Assembly: GCF_000784355.1 (NCBI RefSeq)
Contig: NZ_KN360928.1
Location: 253,820 to 317,819 of the forward strand
Length of the DNA stretch: 64,000 nucleotides
Reading direction: 5' to 3'
Origin: Methanolacinia paynteri
GTDB taxonomy: Archaea > Halobacteriota > Methanomicrobia > Methanomicrobiales > Methanomicrobiaceae
Part shown: positions 15,690 through 35,186 of the stretch, piece by piece
How the letters are laid out: every line of letters begins with the position of its first letter
Position numbering within the stretch: the stretch's first letter is position 1
Program-made: the position numbers and the translations under genes
The notes under the pieces: model-generated
Databases searched by the model: none
What the model saw: the letters and a program-made list of their open reading frames with translations, nothing else
What the model was told of the DNA's origin: nothing

Positions 15690-16514
15690 TTAGGCCTTCA
15701 CATCGGCAGACTTGTCAGCCGGATAGGTGCTAAATCCATAGTCCTCAAAGACTGAAAGACCCTTCTCGGATGAAACGTATTCGACGAACTCTTCGGCCTC
15801 GTCAGGACTCGCCGAGAATGTCATAACGCCGATCGGGACAATCTTCACGATGTTCTGATTGTTCGGTATGTATATGATCTCAAGGTCGTCCGAATCACCA
15901 AGATCCTCCCATATTATCGAGCCGTCGACAGTTCCGAGAGATGTCTGCAGCACGATCTCGTTCACTGTTGCCGCACGTGTCACCACATTCGGGTAGATCG
16001 TTTGATTCAGGCCGTTTTTCTCAATTATCTTGTTGGATAACTTTCCAATTGCGCATGCAGACGCATCACCGAGCTCGACTTTAACTCCCTCGTTTCCGAG
16101 ATCTGCAAGGCAGGTGATTCCCGCAGGGTTGCCTTTCGGCACTGCAATAACCGGGACATGATACACTACGAGTTTCTCGGTATCGTTGACAATGAACCCC
16201 TTGCTCATCGCGGTGTTGAAATCTGCCGTCGATCCGGGCATGTATACGTCACCTTTTTCGGTAAGCTCCATCTGCGAGAGAAGAGTTCCCGATCCGCCAA
16301 AGTTATAGTTGACTACAATACCTGTCTCTGTAGTGAACCGTGATGCGATCTCTTCCATCGGTTCGCTCATTCCTGCTCCGCAGTAGACCAGAATCTCACT
16401 GGTATTTCCGGCCTGACCGGATGCACTGCCGTTATCCCCCTGGCCTGTACATCCTGAAAAGACAGCAAACAAAACCAGAAGGATGAAAGAAATGATAAAA
16501 ATCTGTTTCTTCAT
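15690..16514 (-). CDS. modA: ModA-like substrate-binding lipoprotein
   Basis: A 274-residue extracytoplasmic binding protein of the molybdate/tungstate ModA type. The N terminus is a lipoprotein signal with Cys22 after A-V-F-S-G, followed by a Gly/Ser/Asn linker. The mature part opens with E-I-L-V-Y-C-G-A-G-M-S-E-P and contains the oxyanion-site-like F-G-G-S-G-T-L and K-V-E-L-G-D-A-S-A. Tungstate or molybdate is needed for formylmethanofuran dehydrogenase, so uptake of either is plausible. No permease or ATPase gene is adjacent, which is unusual. The gene symbol reflects family only. Confidence 0.75.
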   Translation of the reverse strand: MKKQIFIISFILLVLFAVFSGCTGQGDNGSASGQAGNTSEILVYCGAGMSEPMEEIASRFTTETGIVVNYNFGGSGTLLSQMELTEKGDVYMPGSTADFNTAMSKGFIVNDTEKLVVYHVPVIAVPKGNPAGITCLADLGNEGVKVELGDASACAIGKLSNKIIEKNGLNQTIYPNVVTRAATVNEIVLQTSLGTVDGSIIWEDLGDSDDLEIIYIPNNQNIVKIVPIGVMTFSASPDEAEEFVEYVSSEKGLSVFEDYGFSTYPADKSADVKA

Positions 16515-29270: not shown

Positions 29271-30206
29271 ATGGAGCTCTCAAAGGCGGAGCGGATGATG
29301 CTCGGAATCGCCATCGGGGACGCACTCGGCAGGGAGTACGAGAATATACCCCGGAAGGAGATCACGATAGAAAAAGTCCCGGAGGGGTATGCAAAAGGAA
29401 CCGGAGTCTATACCGACGATACCCAGATGTCGATCGCAGTTGCGGAGACCATGATCTCCGGACCCTTTGAAGCCGAAACTCTCGCCCTGAAATTCACCGA
29501 GGCATACGGACGTGACAGAAGGGAAGGTTACTCACGTGAAACACTCTCGATGCTCGAAAACTCCCGCACAGGGGAAGAGTTCATCGCCTCGATGACAGGA
29601 GAGGAGAAGGCCGCGAGAAGATCGGATGGGGCTGCAATGCGGGCGGTTCCGATCGGCCTCTTCCCCGGTACTGAAGATGTCATCAGAAACGCGATAATAA
29701 ACTCGGAGATCTCCCATACCCACCCGCACGCAGTCTCGGCTTCAGTCGCAATCGCACTTGCATCGCACTACTTCTACTACGACAAGGGCCCAAGGAAGAA
29801 TGTTATTGAATATATTATGTTACATATGGAACATAAATGGCCCAACATTTGCAGTTACCTGAAGACCGTCAACGAACTGGAAGGGTTCGATCCCGAAACT
29901 ATACTCGGTGAATATGCAGATTATGGCCCGCCCTACACCGATGCAAAGCCTGTTCTCGGTGCGGTCCTCTTCATCATTAAAAAGCACTCGGACGATCCGC
30001 TCAGGACGATACGGGAGACGCTCTCGCTCGGCGGAGATGCCGATACCACCCTCAGCATGGTGCTCGGGATAATAATGACTGATCACCCGGCAGGCGTACT
30101 GCCTGAAAAACTCGTCAGGGATCTTGAAAACGGAAAATTCGGTAGGGATTACCTGCTTAAACTTGGAAAAGAGCTTGACCGGAGATTTCCGGCCGGTTTA
30201 AATTAA
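29271..30206 (+). CDS. ADP-ribosylglycohydrolase (DraG-like)
   Basis: A 311-residue all-helical enzyme that removes ADP-ribose from proteins or small molecules. Binuclear-metal motifs are present: GIAIGDALG (12-20), YTDDTQM (47-53; Thr48, Asp49, Asp50) and SLGGDADTT near residue 250. In nitrogen-fixing organisms DraG reactivates nitrogenase reductase; no nif gene is in this window, so the substrate is open. The ATG at 29271 appears leaderless. A longer in-frame reading from 29139 would overlap the divergent ABC gene and is rejected. Confidence 0.9.
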   Translation: MELSKAERMMLGIAIGDALGREYENIPRKEITIEKVPEGYAKGTGVYTDDTQMSIAVAETMISGPFEAETLALKFTEAYGRDRREGYSRETLSMLENSRTGEEFIASMTGEEKAARRSDGAAMRAVPIGLFPGTEDVIRNAIINSEISHTHPHAVSASVAIALASHYFYYDKGPRKNVIEYIMLHMEHKWPNICSYLKTVNELEGFDPETILGEYADYGPPYTDAKPVLGAVLFIIKKHSDDPLRTIRETLSLGGDADTTLSMVLGIIMTDHPAGVLPEKLVRDLENGKFGRDYLLKLGKELDRRFPAGLN

Positions 30207-30547
30207 TCTTCCGCGATCCTCTGCATCTCGTCCTTAATTTTTTGGACGCCCCCGCTTCCTTCCGTATACGAGGATAGGATAAGCTCGAACAGCCCTTCGG
30301 TCTTCTCTACGTACTTAAGCTGCCTCCTCATCTCTACATAATCGTCGTCGAGTACACCCTTCATCGAGAGATAACCCTCCGAGTAGAAGAAATATGCCGG
30401 CACCTTCAGGTTCTCCCTGATAGTCATATCCCCGAAATTCCCGAGATAATCCAGGAATTCCCTTGTTACGGGTTCGTCAAGCAGCAGTTCGTCCTTTGTC
30501 GAGCCGTCCGAACAGACGACGTGTTTTCTTGATAATTTAATCTTCAT
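30203..30547 (-). CDS. Small conserved-looking hypothetical protein
   Basis: A 114-residue soluble protein with charged, mixed alpha/beta composition (KIKLSRKHVVCSDGSTKDEL; DDDYVEMRRQLKYVEKTEG). Family not recognised. The start ATG 30547 overlaps the last 11 bases of the upstream aminotransferase gene, with GGAG about 11 nt upstream, so it is probably translated together with it and may be a partner. Its 3' end overlaps the convergent DraG-like gene by 4 bp. Confidence 0.6.
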   Translation of the reverse strand: MKIKLSRKHVVCSDGSTKDELLLDEPVTREFLDYLGNFGDMTIRENLKVPAYFFYSEGYLSMKGVLDDDYVEMRRQLKYVEKTEGLFELILSSYTEGSGGVQKIKDEMQRIAED

Positions 30548-31682
30548 ATTGTGCAATCTCCAAAATGGCCTTAACAGTTTTTTCACACTCTTCCACAGTA
30601 TTCATGCAGGAAAGGCTCAGGCGGACAGCCCCCCTGCCCCCGTCGATCGAATTATGGACCAGCGGCGAGCAATGCAGCCCCGACCTCGATACGATCGAGT
30701 AGACGTTCGAGAGCATGAACCCGGTATCCTCGCAGTCGATCCCCTCGACATTGAATAAGACGATCGGGAGGGCAGGATCTTTATTGTATACCTTCACTCT
30801 GTCGCACCCGGATATGCCGCCGATGATCATATCCGTCATCTCCAGCGACCTTCTCCGGATTTCACCGGGACCGCTCCGGTTTATGAAATCCAGACCCGCG
30901 TAGAGGGAGGCGATCCCGGGATAATTGTGAGTACCAGCCTCGAATTTCTCCGGCGGAATATCGCCCATATAGACATTCGATGAGTCTGCACCCGTTCCTC
31001 CCTGCCGGACAGGTGCCAGTTTTTCAGGCGAACGGATCACGAGGCCGCCGATCCCCGCGATACCGAAGAGATATTTATGGCCGGTGAACGCCAGGGCGTC
31101 CGCGTGGATCTTCTCAAAATCCACAGGCACAAGACCGGCCGTCTGGGCGGCATCGATGACGAAGAAGATATCCTCAGCCGAGAGTATCCTCCCGATGCTT
31201 TCAAGATCCTGCACGGTTCCGAGGACGTTGCTCCCATGATTAAATACGGCCATTCCGGTATCCGGCCGGACGGATTCGGCAACCATTTCAGGATCGATGA
31301 CCCCGTCCTTCGAAGGTATTATCGAGAGGTCGATCATTCCAGCCCTTCTCAGGGTGAACAGCGGACGAAGAACCGAGTTGTGCTCGAGATCGGACGTAAT
31401 GACATGCATCCTCCCTCCGGCTTCGAGAATCCGCCCGTGGATCGCCATGTTCAGTGAATCGGTGGCGTTCTGGGTGAATATAACATTCTCAGGCCTTCCC
31501 GAAGAGAAGAAGTCCGCAACCCGCTTCCTTGTTTCATAAGGATAATCAGTCTGCTCCTTCATCGTCGTCCTGCCGGGCTCATACACCGGCATGGATATGC
31601 AGTCCATGACAGCATCCTTTACGCAGTCCGGCTTCGGCCACGTGGTCGCGGCATTGTTGAGATATATCATTTCATCGTCCAC
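30537..31682 (-). CDS. Class V aminotransferase, cysteine desulfurase family
   Basis: A PLP enzyme of about 381 residues. The N terminus (MIYLNNAATTWPKPD) is that of the cysteine desulfurase subfamily with A-T-x-W-P-K-P; the PLP lysine lies in AFTGHKYLFG; V-D-A-A-Q-T-A-G precedes it and SGLHCSP near the C terminus carries the candidate catalytic cysteine. It would mobilise sulfur from cysteine, or act as a selenocysteine lyase. GTG 31682 is taken as start because GGTGA lies 6 nt upstream; ATG 31670 is a close alternative. Co-transcribed with the small gene at 30203-30547. Confidence 0.88.
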   Translation of the reverse strand: MDDEMIYLNNAATTWPKPDCVKDAVMDCISMPVYEPGRTTMKEQTDYPYETRKRVADFFSSGRPENVIFTQNATDSLNMAIHGRILEAGGRMHVITSDLEHNSVLRPLFTLRRAGMIDLSIIPSKDGVIDPEMVAESVRPDTGMAVFNHGSNVLGTVQDLESIGRILSAEDIFFVIDAAQTAGLVPVDFEKIHADALAFTGHKYLFGIAGIGGLVIRSPEKLAPVRQGGTGADSSNVYMGDIPPEKFEAGTHNYPGIASLYAGLDFINRSGPGEIRRRSLEMTDMIIGGISGCDRVKVYNKDPALPIVLFNVEGIDCEDTGFMLSNVYSIVSRSGLHCSPLVHNSIDGGRGAVRLSLSCMNTVEECEKTVKAILEIAQYED

Positions 31683-31795
31683 GGGATTCACCTGAAAAGT
31701 TCCGGCGTCTCTGTTAATATATTTGAGTGTCAAATCTTTTTATTAGATTCTTGTAGTTTGTAAATCATATTTTTATCAGACAGGAGCCGGAAAAT

Positions 31796-32644
31796 ATGGA
31801 AAATACCGATATAGACTGGAATTTGGAATGGAAACTCCGCATGGAGAGAAACGAGGCGCAAAAAGGTTCGGGGTGCTCCTCGTACTGGGACACACGCGAG
31901 AGCGCACTGAAGTTCTACGAGTCTTCGTTTGAGGACGGCGGAGAGAGGGTAAACTGGATCGTCGGCAATATCCCGTACACCCCCGATTCAAGGATACTCG
32001 ACGTCGGAGCAGGCCCCGGAACGATTGCAATTCCCCTCGCGGGAAGGGCTGCCACTGTTACCGCAGTCGAACCATCTCCGGCAATGGCCGGCGTCCTGAG
32101 GGAAAAGATCGCAGAGAACGGAATTCAAAACATCACGGTGGTTGAAAAGCCTTGGGAGGATGTAGACCCAGGATCCGATCTTAATCCCCCTTACGACATT
32201 GTCTTCGCCTCTTTCTCACTCGGGATGCACGACCTCTGGGAGGCCGTAGACAAGATGAACTCGGTCTGCCGGGGCAGGGTGCTCGTCTTTCACTTTGCAG
32301 GCGGGAACTCATGGGAGCCGATGATGCGTGAGCTATGGCCGGTCATGCACGGTGAGGAGTTTCACCCCGGGCCTAAGGCGGACATCATATTCAATCTCCT
32401 GTACAGCAAAGGGATCTATCCCGATATCGTCTCGGCACCGCACAGCTACAGGCTGGATTATAAATCAATCGACGATGCTGTCAACGAATTCGGAAAACGT
32501 CTCAATGCCGAAACCGAAGAGCACTACGATATCCTGAGAAAATATTTCAGCGAAAAGCTGGAGCAGGACCCGCAGACCGGGGAGTATTTCATGAATATGA
32601 GATCCCGCAAGATGTGCATCAGCTGGGACTCTCCGGGAAAATAA
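31796..32644 (+). CDS. Class I SAM-dependent methyltransferase
   Basis: A 282-residue methyltransferase: motif I ILDVGAGPGTIAIPLA, the acidic ribose-binding V-E-P-S-P-A-M, and a post-I region DIVFASFSLGMHDLWEA. N-terminal 60 residues include a conserved-looking S-S-Y-W-D-x-R-E-S-A. The substrate is unknown. It is convergent with the radical SAM fusion gene and separated by 20 bp; similarity of context suggests one functional cluster, but this is inference. Confidence 0.85.
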   Translation: MENTDIDWNLEWKLRMERNEAQKGSGCSSYWDTRESALKFYESSFEDGGERVNWIVGNIPYTPDSRILDVGAGPGTIAIPLAGRAATVTAVEPSPAMAGVLREKIAENGIQNITVVEKPWEDVDPGSDLNPPYDIVFASFSLGMHDLWEAVDKMNSVCRGRVLVFHFAGGNSWEPMMRELWPVMHGEEFHPGPKADIIFNLLYSKGIYPDIVSAPHSYRLDYKSIDDAVNEFGKRLNAETEEHYDILRKYFSEKLEQDPQTGEYFMNMRSRKMCISWDSPGK

Positions 32645-32664: not shown

Positions 32665-34413
32665 TCAGGGCAGGTATTTCATAAAAGAGCGGTTGGTTAT
32701 ATCGTAATCCGAATCCCTGTAGAACATCATATAGTACTCTTTCCTCTCCCTCTCGAGATCGAACGAAAAGATATCGGGATGCAGGATATTTGCAAGATGC
32801 ATAAGCCCCAGGATCCATCTCGGGCTGCCGAAGTCCCACCCCGGAACCATATTGAATACACGCCCGTTACTGACTGCACCTGCATCCAGCCCCTCGCGTA
32901 TGCAGAAGTCCATGTAGTCGCTTGCCGGAGAGGAGAACAGCCCTGAAATGATGATATAATCAGGATTGAGACACTCGAACTCCTCCTTCGAAAGCGTTAC
33001 ACCAGGCTTTCCCTTCCTGGTGATCCTCCTGTTGAGGCTCCTTCCACCGGCGCACTCGACGAGACTGTTCTCAAACCTCGTCGAGATAAGCCCGAACAGG
33101 GGAGTGCCCATCGAATAGTATACATTAGGCCTCTTTGAAACAGGTAAATTCCCGGCCTTTTCAGTCACTTTCCGGCTCTTCGCCTCGAGATAACAGACAA
33201 GATCCTCTCCTTCGTCGATCTTTCCGGTTCTCCTGGAGAGATCCCTGATCATCTCGTAGTAGGTCTCAAAGGAAGCCAGTTTTTCATGGACATAGGCGAG
33301 ATAGTTCTCTTTTATAAGGTCCTTCCAGAGCCAGTCGAGCTTTATGCCGTCCCTGACACCGAGGCACTCGAGGATAGCAAGCACCATCTCGAACCCCCTC
33401 GTCGGCCGGTATCCACCCATCATTCCCTCCTCGTGGAAGACTCCCTCCCTGAACTCTCCCTTCAGGGGGAGGACATACCCGCATGCACACTTTCCACCCG
33501 GGCTGAACCATTTGGTCTTTGAACCCATTGGACCGTAGAACTCCCTCTCCGCGATCAGCGATCCGCATTTAGGGCAGTATGTATTCAGCATAGGAGTTCC
33601 CGGCGAATTGAAAAGATACACGTGGTCAAGCATATCCTTCAGCTCATTGCAGAGCAGTTCCGAACTGCTGACCGAAGGCTCGAGATCTATCGCTGCATCA
33701 CCGAACGGGACGAACCTCATGATCTGCAGCGGTATATCAGACGAAATCCCGGAGATCCCCTCTGCCGTCCCGAACACTTCGTTCTCCATCCCCTTAAGAT
33801 GCATCACGGATGCCTCGACATGCACGCCTGCATCATTGAACAGCTTCAGATTCCTGAAAACAGGTTCGGATGACATTACCCCGCAGTCGCGGTACCTTGC
33901 ATCAGATGCACCCTTGAACCCGATATTGATAAAATCAATTGTATTGGAGAGGAAATGCGCCGCACTCTTTGTAAAATAGCAGTTTGAAGAAATTCCGGTA
34001 AAAAGGCCCTCCTTTGCCGCTTCCTCCGCAACACCCATAACAGTATAATAGGATACGAGCGGTTCGTTGAGGCAGAAGGCGATTCCCTCGCAGCCTTCGT
34101 CGATCGCCTTGGAGACCACCTTTTCCGGGGGCACTCTCTTCAATGCCCCGGAGACGGATCTCGGGTTCGAGGTGAATATCCCCGATATGCAGCCCCTGCA
34201 CGAGAAGTTGCAGCCGACGGAGGAGACCTGCAGGACTTTTGCCCCGGGAATATAGTGCAGAATCGGAACAGTCTCCATCGAAACCGGCATCATCGCCATA
34301 TACGAGTTCCCGTGGATCTCGGCTATTCCCTTCCCGAGACATGTATACATCCCGCACCGGCCCACACCACCTTCCGGTATATCACAGCCGATCTCGCATA
34401 CGGGGCATTTCAT
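32665..34413 (-). CDS. Radical SAM enzyme fused to a binding-protein (BtuF/FecB-like) domain
   Basis: A 582-residue cytosolic protein. Residues 1-30 hold five Cys (3, 6, 10, 20, 25), a possible extra metal site. The radical SAM cluster motif is C-x3-C-x2-C (Cys68, Cys72, Cys75 in GCNFSCRGC), in the style of PflA/AmmeMemoRadiSam activases. Near 275-315 a C-P-K-C ... C-A-C-G pair suggests a zinc ribbon. From about 425 the sequence looks like a periplasmic-binding-protein fold (MGTPLFGL, E-E-F-E-C-L-N-P-D-Y-I-I-I-S-G, W-I-L-G-L-M-H-L-A), yet no signal peptide exists. The start overlaps the methyltransferase stop upstream (ATGA). Substrate unknown; corrinoid, siderophore or metal handling is possible. 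Confidence 0.82.
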   Translation of the reverse strand: MKCPVCEIGCDIPEGGVGRCGMYTCLGKGIAEIHGNSYMAMMPVSMETVPILHYIPGAKVLQVSSVGCNFSCRGCISGIFTSNPRSVSGALKRVPPEKVVSKAIDEGCEGIAFCLNEPLVSYYTVMGVAEEAAKEGLFTGISSNCYFTKSAAHFLSNTIDFINIGFKGASDARYRDCGVMSSEPVFRNLKLFNDAGVHVEASVMHLKGMENEVFGTAEGISGISSDIPLQIMRFVPFGDAAIDLEPSVSSSELLCNELKDMLDHVYLFNSPGTPMLNTYCPKCGSLIAEREFYGPMGSKTKWFSPGGKCACGYVLPLKGEFREGVFHEEGMMGGYRPTRGFEMVLAILECLGVRDGIKLDWLWKDLIKENYLAYVHEKLASFETYYEMIRDLSRRTGKIDEGEDLVCYLEAKSRKVTEKAGNLPVSKRPNVYYSMGTPLFGLISTRFENSLVECAGGRSLNRRITRKGKPGVTLSKEEFECLNPDYIIISGLFSSPASDYMDFCIREGLDAGAVSNGRVFNMVPGWDFGSPRWILGLMHLANILHPDIFSFDLERERKEYYMMFYRDSDYDITNRSFMKYLP

Positions 34414-35066
34414 GATACCTCTACCTTCTTTTCAATAATTATCCAGAGCCCTGTTTCGTCATCGATGCACCGGACGCTGCAGTCTTTCAGCTTCGAAGCA
34501 TTGTCCAGGAACGTCTGCTTCATATCGGGAGACATATTCCTCCTGTACTTCTTCTCCCAATCCGGATCTCTGCGGATCATCTCCTCTACGATGCTGTCTC
34601 TCAGCTCCGCATTGCCGAAACCGCCCCCAATATAGGATCTTCCCCCCGGTTTCAGGATCCTTCCAATCTCGGAGAACGCCCTTTCATAATCCTCCCAGAA
34701 GAATGCCGAGCCCCTGCTGACGACAAGGTCGGCAATTCCTGATTCAAGTGGGATCTTCTCTACAGGACCATTCACAACGGTTATTCTCTCTGAAAGCCCC
34801 GCATTTTTAATATTTTTCTCCGCGATCTCGTTCGATGCGGGCGAGTGATCCAGTGCATAGATCCTGAAACCGGGATATGCTGCCATGGCGATAGCCAGGG
34901 AAGCCGGACCGCTTCCGAGGTCGACACAGACTCCTTCACTGATACCTGTCTCTTCCACCGCATTCCCGGCAATTACCGGATATATCGGCTTAAAGAGCGT
35001 CTTTGCAATTCTGTCCATCCCCCCGGCGGCGTTCTTCTCATCAGCTTCCCTAATAATTTCAACCAC
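34410..35066 (-). CDS. Class I SAM-dependent methyltransferase
   Basis: About 218 residues. Motif I is VCVDLGSGPASLAIA, the acidic loop is A-L-D-H-S-P-A-S, and LVVSRGSAFFWEDYERAF and I-L-K-P-G-G-R-S-Y-I-G-G-G follow, a pattern common in methanogen methyltransferases linked to radical SAM or metal-uptake genes. The stop overlaps the next gene's ATG by 4 bp, so it is translationally coupled to the radical SAM fusion. The start is uncertain: GTG 35066 (used here) or ATG 35018; an upstream start at 35123 lies upstream of the TATA box and is unlikely. Confidence 0.8.
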   Translation of the reverse strand: MVEIIREADEKNAAGGMDRIAKTLFKPIYPVIAGNAVEETGISEGVCVDLGSGPASLAIAMAAYPGFRIYALDHSPASNEIAEKNIKNAGLSERITVVNGPVEKIPLESGIADLVVSRGSAFFWEDYERAFSEIGRILKPGGRSYIGGGFGNAELRDSIVEEMIRRDPDWEKKYRRNMSPDMKQTFLDNASKLKDCSVRCIDDETGLWIIIEKKVEVS

Positions 35067-35080
35067 GACCAGATACCGAG

Positions 35081-35090
35081 CATATAAAAT
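35081..35090 (-). promoter_or_regulatory. TATA box of the methyltransferase/radical SAM operon
   Basis: On the minus strand ATTTTATATG is the only good TATA box before the operon. It predicts a transcript start near 35057-35062, which rules out the start at 35123. Confidence 0.45.
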
Positions 35091-35186
35091 ATAGTTTACA
35101 TAATGACTTTGTTGAAGATGCATAATTAACTAAACGGTTGGATTCGATGACACCCCGGATATTTTTAATCCAAAAACCCGGCAAGG

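Follow-up and report, generated by a model that had tools for sequence, protein, structure and literature searches.

Formylmethanofuran dehydrogenase, formate dehydrogenase and nitrogenase make anaerobes dependent on Mo, W or V, metals for which the uptake routes known to us in these organisms handle simple oxyanions. Import-coupled processing in the cytosol is represented by heme opening (ChuW/HutW) and corrinoid remodelling (CbiZ), both of which have tetrapyrrole substrates and resemble the system described here by analogy, with no sequence relation claimed. We know of no radical SAM enzyme, methyltransferase or DUF364 protein that forms part of MolBC-A. MolBC-A is a BtuCD-type importer that carries molybdate, and shares with the present system the class III importer architecture and a FecB-like binding protein (SBP) linked to Mo (PMC4031551). 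Independent work has connected proteins of the DUF364/DUF4213 family (PF04016), such as Dhaf4260, with Mo/W/V transport and with a chelator of pterin or siderophore type (PMC2954201). They too are found in neighbourhoods of ABC importer and Mo/W/V transport genes and recur beside the fusion protein (FUS) that is the subject of this study, but these heavy-metal chelation proteins have a different fold and are a different enzyme, and radical SAM proteins are absent from the main text of the Dhaf4260 paper.

FUS is a protein of 582 aa, delimited by its ORF, profile matches and fold, and is encoded on the reverse strand at 32665..34413 of the window, by which we mean the whole 64,000-nucleotide stretch of DNA analysed. 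Residues 1-316 form a radical SAM part like that of the AmmeMemoRadiSam family (TIGR04337, amrS), which is followed by a helical linker (residues ~336-378) and then by the half SBP considered below. As the initial annotation had stated, the radical SAM motif (residues 68-75; 34189..34212, reverse strand; from sequence and alignment) is an intact CX3CX2C, reading C68-N-F-S-C72-R-G-C75, and a match over the cut-off to Pfam Radical_SAM (PF04055, E=1.9e-11) places FUS in that superfamily. Alignment with TIGR04337 runs nearly end to end over residues 1-316 (E=1.6e-25) and takes in the four N-terminal cysteines and those of the ribbon. Unlike AmmeMemoRadiSam, FUS reaches only 89.7 bits against a cut-off of 220, carries the half SBP and has as neighbours a methyltransferase (MT1) and an ABC importer. 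The extra N-terminal cysteines (C3/C6/C10/C20) and the zinc-ribbon-like pairs (C280-x2-C283 ... C309-x-C311; 33481..33576, reverse strand) to which the initial annotation drew attention are indeed present, being at least 94% conserved among 68 fusion homologues, but the ribbon also occurs in AmmeMemoRadiSam-type proteins and none of these cysteines varies in a set of 15 radical SAM proteins that lack the C-lobe (13 of AmmeMemoRadiSam type and two stand-alone Methanofollis proteins). They are therefore a trait of the family rather than of the fusion, and were rejected as a sign of special function. In Foldseek searches of the PDB the N-terminal fold was closest to the PFL-activating enzyme (8fo0, TMt 0.72), with NifB also matched. 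No hydrophobic leader was found in FUS, the highest hydropathy of any 15-residue stretch in the N-terminus being 0.67 compared with a median of 2.77 in neighbouring SBPs, which agrees with the earlier claim that a signal peptide is lacking.

The C-terminal part, residues ~380-582 (32668..33276, reverse strand), was recognised as half of a class III SBP (TroA/FecB/BtuF-type) by fold, PF01497 and alignment, and contains the clade A signatures (see below) GKPG (468-471) and WDFGSPRW (526-533). The match to Pfam Peripla_BP_2 covers residues 382-520, is sub-threshold (E=0.0015) and involves the second half of the profile, while phmmer matched this part to 4hn9 with an E of 3.7e-08. An AlphaFold2 model of FUS was built from 4 sequences (pLDDT 74.6, pTM 0.74). 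Foldseek matched the C-terminal 190-200 residues to the class III SBPs 4ovk, YiuA, 4hn9, 4pag and the molybdate-binding HI1472/MolA (3psa), and also to RhuT, BhuT, IsdE and a Shigella heme-binding protein; about half of each target was covered, with a TMt of ~0.5 over ~200 residues. Five fusion proteins found at E 0.001 in the window's own genome, G536 and G118 matched PF01497 only from profile position 92-93, whereas most ordinary SBPs of the same three genomes matched from much nearer the profile start. Since the profile match begins in mid-profile and the structural match covers half of the target, the backbone helix and C-lobe are present and the N-lobe is absent, and the C-terminus as modelled is half of a class III SBP. 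Unlike complete members of that class it shows neither a two-lobe architecture nor an export signal, and is fused to an enzyme. The BtuF/FecB-like domain first proposed thus has the right type of fold, and the suggested comparison with TroA/BtuF-type structures did return class III SBPs, but with only half of the binding protein present the term overstates the case and the boundary placed at residue 425 is too far downstream. When a profile of the FUS C-lobe was searched, SBPs from FUS loci were among the best matches, with SBPs from elsewhere close behind. Both halves of a tandem double FecB-type SBP of 760 aa found near FUS at one locus (L068:5286-7568) match this profile.

MT1, a class I SAM methyltransferase of 237 aa, lies upstream of FUS (34410..35123, reverse strand). 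The ATG of FUS overlaps the stop of MT1 by 4 bp, an identical overlap is found in many genera, and MT1 is directly upstream at most clade A loci (see below); its nearest solved relative, 3dlc, is labelled a putative methyltransferase. A second SAM methyltransferase, MT2 (31796..32644, forward strand), belongs to a large multi-copy family and is convergent with FUS, its end at 32644 being 20 bp from the FUS stop. The overlap and the 20 bp spacing are as first described, when both methyltransferases were taken to be partners of FUS. This holds for MT1, which is within 9 kb of FUS at 57 of 77 loci. MT2 is probably not specific to FUS: 199 of the 231 genomes in the class contain relatives of it, mostly without the fusion, and it was rejected as a dedicated partner. 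Two further genes on the reverse strand are possibly associated, one encoding an aminotransferase V or cysteine desulfurase-like protein (30537..31733; TIGR01977 just under the cut-off) and the other a small protein (30203..30586) whose family has no Pfam match and is found at FUS and MT2 loci. Iterative HMM searching gave 14 members of this small family, of ~95-140 aa, and besides the window they recur at L046, L047, L049, L053, L055, L061, L077, L079 and L081.

Studies of the wider neighbourhood showed that in Methanosarcinales the operon order is SBP-MT1-FUS-FecCD-ATPase, and that in Methanomicrobiales and Firmicutes it is FecCD-ATPase-(SBP)-MT1-FUS, or ModABC adjoins FUS. Within 9 kb of FUS a FecB-type SBP was found at 50/77 loci, FecCD at 42/77 and DUF364/4213 at 19/77, whereas MT1, SBP, FecCD and DUF364/4213 were each absent from all 18 of the AmmeMemoRadiSam loci of the same order that served as controls. 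Two Methanofollis loci (L195 and L196) were taken out of the control set after inspection because they hold a lobe-less form of the same module. There a radical SAM protein without the C-lobe (L195:9378-10382, L196:9385-10392) adjoins a double SBP of 736-764 aa, FecCD, an ATPase and ModABC/TrmO genes. As these two loci have the same importer and ModABC genes, the module can evidently do without the lobe. At 17 of the 77 loci, the window among them, neither a recognised importer nor a Mo/W gene was found near FUS; one of these (L171) has an importer of another kind, the Ssu type. A FecB-FecCD-ATPase set is present in the window's genome outside the window, at ~241-244 kb of C29 (L118, L176), ~45 kb from FUS on the same contig, and its SBP is of a sequence type found at other FUS operons; this set is likely to be the importer partner.

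FUS is linked in the genome to Mo/W/V genes beyond chance. Mo/W genes (ModABC, MoeA, FmdE/Fwd, FdhD) lie within 9 kb at 22/77 FUS loci compared with 1/18 controls (p=0.063), and linkage to ModA taken alone is weak by Fisher test against the AmmeMemoRadiSam controls (15/77 versus 0/18, p=0.066), all such p-values overstating the evidence because of the relatedness of the loci. For ModA the stronger test is that of proximity across whole genomes: in 12 of 50 genomes a ModA homologue lies no more than 10 kb from FUS, where 0.95 would be expected. The same association is seen in bacteria, where one locus (L163) has the order FecCD-ATPase-SBP-DUF364-MT1-FUS-TrmO together with MoeA-like genes, two ModABC-type sets and two further PBP_like_2 SBPs. 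In Clostridium thailandense (L039:2000-7630) genes for a NifX-like Fe-Mo-Co binding protein, an Mrp/MinD ATPase and NifU/MOSC lie upstream of FUS-MT1-ModABC. A second copy of FUS is head-to-head with nitrogenase genes in three Methanosarcina genomes, the sets being AnfHDGK or VnfHDGK, with VnfD/VnfG/VnfK above the NCBIfam cut-offs at L093 and L103 and AnfD/AnfG/AnfK at L091. Among the Methanosarcina genomes tested, a family search detected AnfG/VnfG in all four that have a second FUS copy (G484, G500, G534 and G536) and in none of the five with a single one, and in G534 the second copy is ~4 kb from an AnfG/VnfG gene by coordinates. We take G536 to be M. acetivorans, the organism names given for genome handles being tentative. 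A scan of six FUS loci against Rfam found no riboswitch (e.g. Moco) or other regulatory RNA. Within the window a ModA-type SBP (15690-16514, reverse strand), 16 kb from FUS, adjoins a histidine kinase of 1591 aa with PAS/GAF domains.

As FUS genes travel with importers and with Mo/W/V genes, FUS probably processes an import that serves the supply of scarce metals. The observations at the base of this reading are the two fold halves, the pairing of FUS with MT1 and an importer in operons, and the Mo/W/V linkage. We tentatively favour, at a little under even confidence, FUS and MT1 as cytosolic enzymes of a FecB-FecCD-ATPase uptake module for a ligand linked to Mo, W or V. A surface SBP would capture this ligand, which may be an oxyanion chelate, a metallophore or a compound of the metal-pterin type, and FecCD with the ATPase would bring it into the cell. 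The half lobe of FUS would then hold it against the radical SAM barrel, which would stand in for the absent N-lobe, and the ligand may be modified or opened by radical chemistry together with methylation by MT1, so that the metal becomes usable. We infer what class the ligand belongs to, that the lobe faces the barrel and that the reaction releases or converts the ligand. The cytosolic pathway with a substrate-holding lobe envisaged in the initial annotation is supported to this extent, and of the substrates it named a chelate or metal fits the Mo/W/V neighbourhoods. If the reading is correct, a conserved importer module has its own radical SAM enzyme and methyltransferase, and the metals enter the cell in a form requiring chemical conversion before they can be used; Methanosarcina, in which one FUS copy adjoins vanadium or iron-only nitrogenase genes, offers a genetically tractable setting. 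Such proteins may even, though we consider it unlikely, form a new class of enzyme, with the radical SAM barrel substituting for one SBP lobe and an imported Mo/W/V metallophore or metal-pterin clamped between the remaining lobe and this barrel and broken open. The clamp could then be regarded, by an analogy just as doubtful, as the radical SAM counterpart of siderophore hydrolysis in strict anaerobes.

Somewhat improbable, in our estimation, is an arrangement in which FUS and MT1 synthesise a metal chelator or pterin-like cofactor for Mo/W/V and the importer retrieves the loaded compound. It has been proposed that DUF364 enzymes in similar neighbourhoods produce chelators of flavin, pterin or siderophore type (PMC2954201), and DUF364 and several methyltransferase families cluster with FUS, but neither a scaffold-building gene nor an exporter was recognised among the recurrent neighbours, and a lobe derived from an SBP would be better suited to a ligand that is already loaded than to a precursor in biosynthesis. 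The ligand of an importer-coupled process might instead be a tetrapyrrole (corrinoid, heme or F430-like), handled as in BtuFCD/CbiZ or ChuW-type systems. The class III SBP fold suits binders of heme and B12, as the matches to RhuT, BhuT, IsdE and the Shigella protein illustrate, and MT2 and MT1 are weakly similar to models of CpaM and CbiT, although the latter likeness is generic methyltransferase similarity. The recurrent neighbours that were annotated included no recognised gene for corrinoid, heme or F430, and it is Mo/W/V genes that recur, in archaea and bacteria. Tetrapyrroles are given a low probability, and the corrinoid named in the initial annotation gained no support, no corrinoid salvage gene having been recognised among annotated neighbours.

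Equally doubtful is a role for FUS as activator or modifier of a protein, through glycyl-radical-type activation or peptide modification, with the C-lobe as a docking module; that the target belongs to the Mo/W/V enzymes or is the SBP itself is likewise given little weight. The resemblance of the N-terminal fold to the PFL-activating enzyme speaks for such a role, as does the nearest named family, AmmeMemoRadiSam, for which we know of no substrate. Against it, the recurrent neighbours included no recognised glycyl radical enzyme, and at the position where SBPs contact their ligand the C-lobe retains a loop that is invariant. That the gene is an ordinary radical SAM gene to which the decayed remnant of an SBP is attached, amid incidental neighbours, as the half domain and its sub-threshold Pfam match might suggest, is very improbable and is already contradicted by conservation: archaea and Clostridia share the boundary of the half domain, with 40-50% identity over the full length, the most conserved block of the fusion homologues sits in the lobe, and the neighbours are sharply unlike those of control loci.

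Judged by sequence, the fusion occurs widely in Methanomicrobiales and Methanosarcinales and in some Clostridia. Full-length homologues were found in many Methanomicrobiales, in Methanosarcinaceae and in other families of the phylum, and among bacteria in Clostridium thailandense, Pelotomaculum and Syntrophomonadaceae. Bacterial occurrence is patchy, as the single genome in 227 from the order of C. thailandense indicates; there were 10 in 113 from the order of Pelotomaculum and 5 in 250 from the sample of the phylum of Syntrophomonadaceae. The homologues keep the C-terminal domain and MT1 is a recurrent neighbour, and on both of these the first reading depended. Searching plasmids by tblastn gave only partial AmmeMemoRadiSam or SBP matches and no full fusion. 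A narrow search of the open-access literature found no description of the fusion, which is weak evidence of absence, and nothing on FUS was noted in papers on methanogen proteomics and diazotrophy (PMC9431491, PMC9765008). In a tree of 68 proteins clade A, whose lobe contains GKPG and WDFG[SN]PR, is set apart from the clade B paralogues. The latter are without GKPG/WDFGSPR and may therefore act on something else. The FUS of the window belongs to clade A, and one clade B paralogue is present in its own genome (G000:C35:72425-74089). In close relatives of the window's genome (G112:C42:52314-53854 and L041) FUS is fragmented or contains stops, through gene decay or assembly errors. Repeat arrays at two loci (L077:12800-19110, L064:1033-2031) were read as repetitive ORFs and are probably CRISPR arrays.
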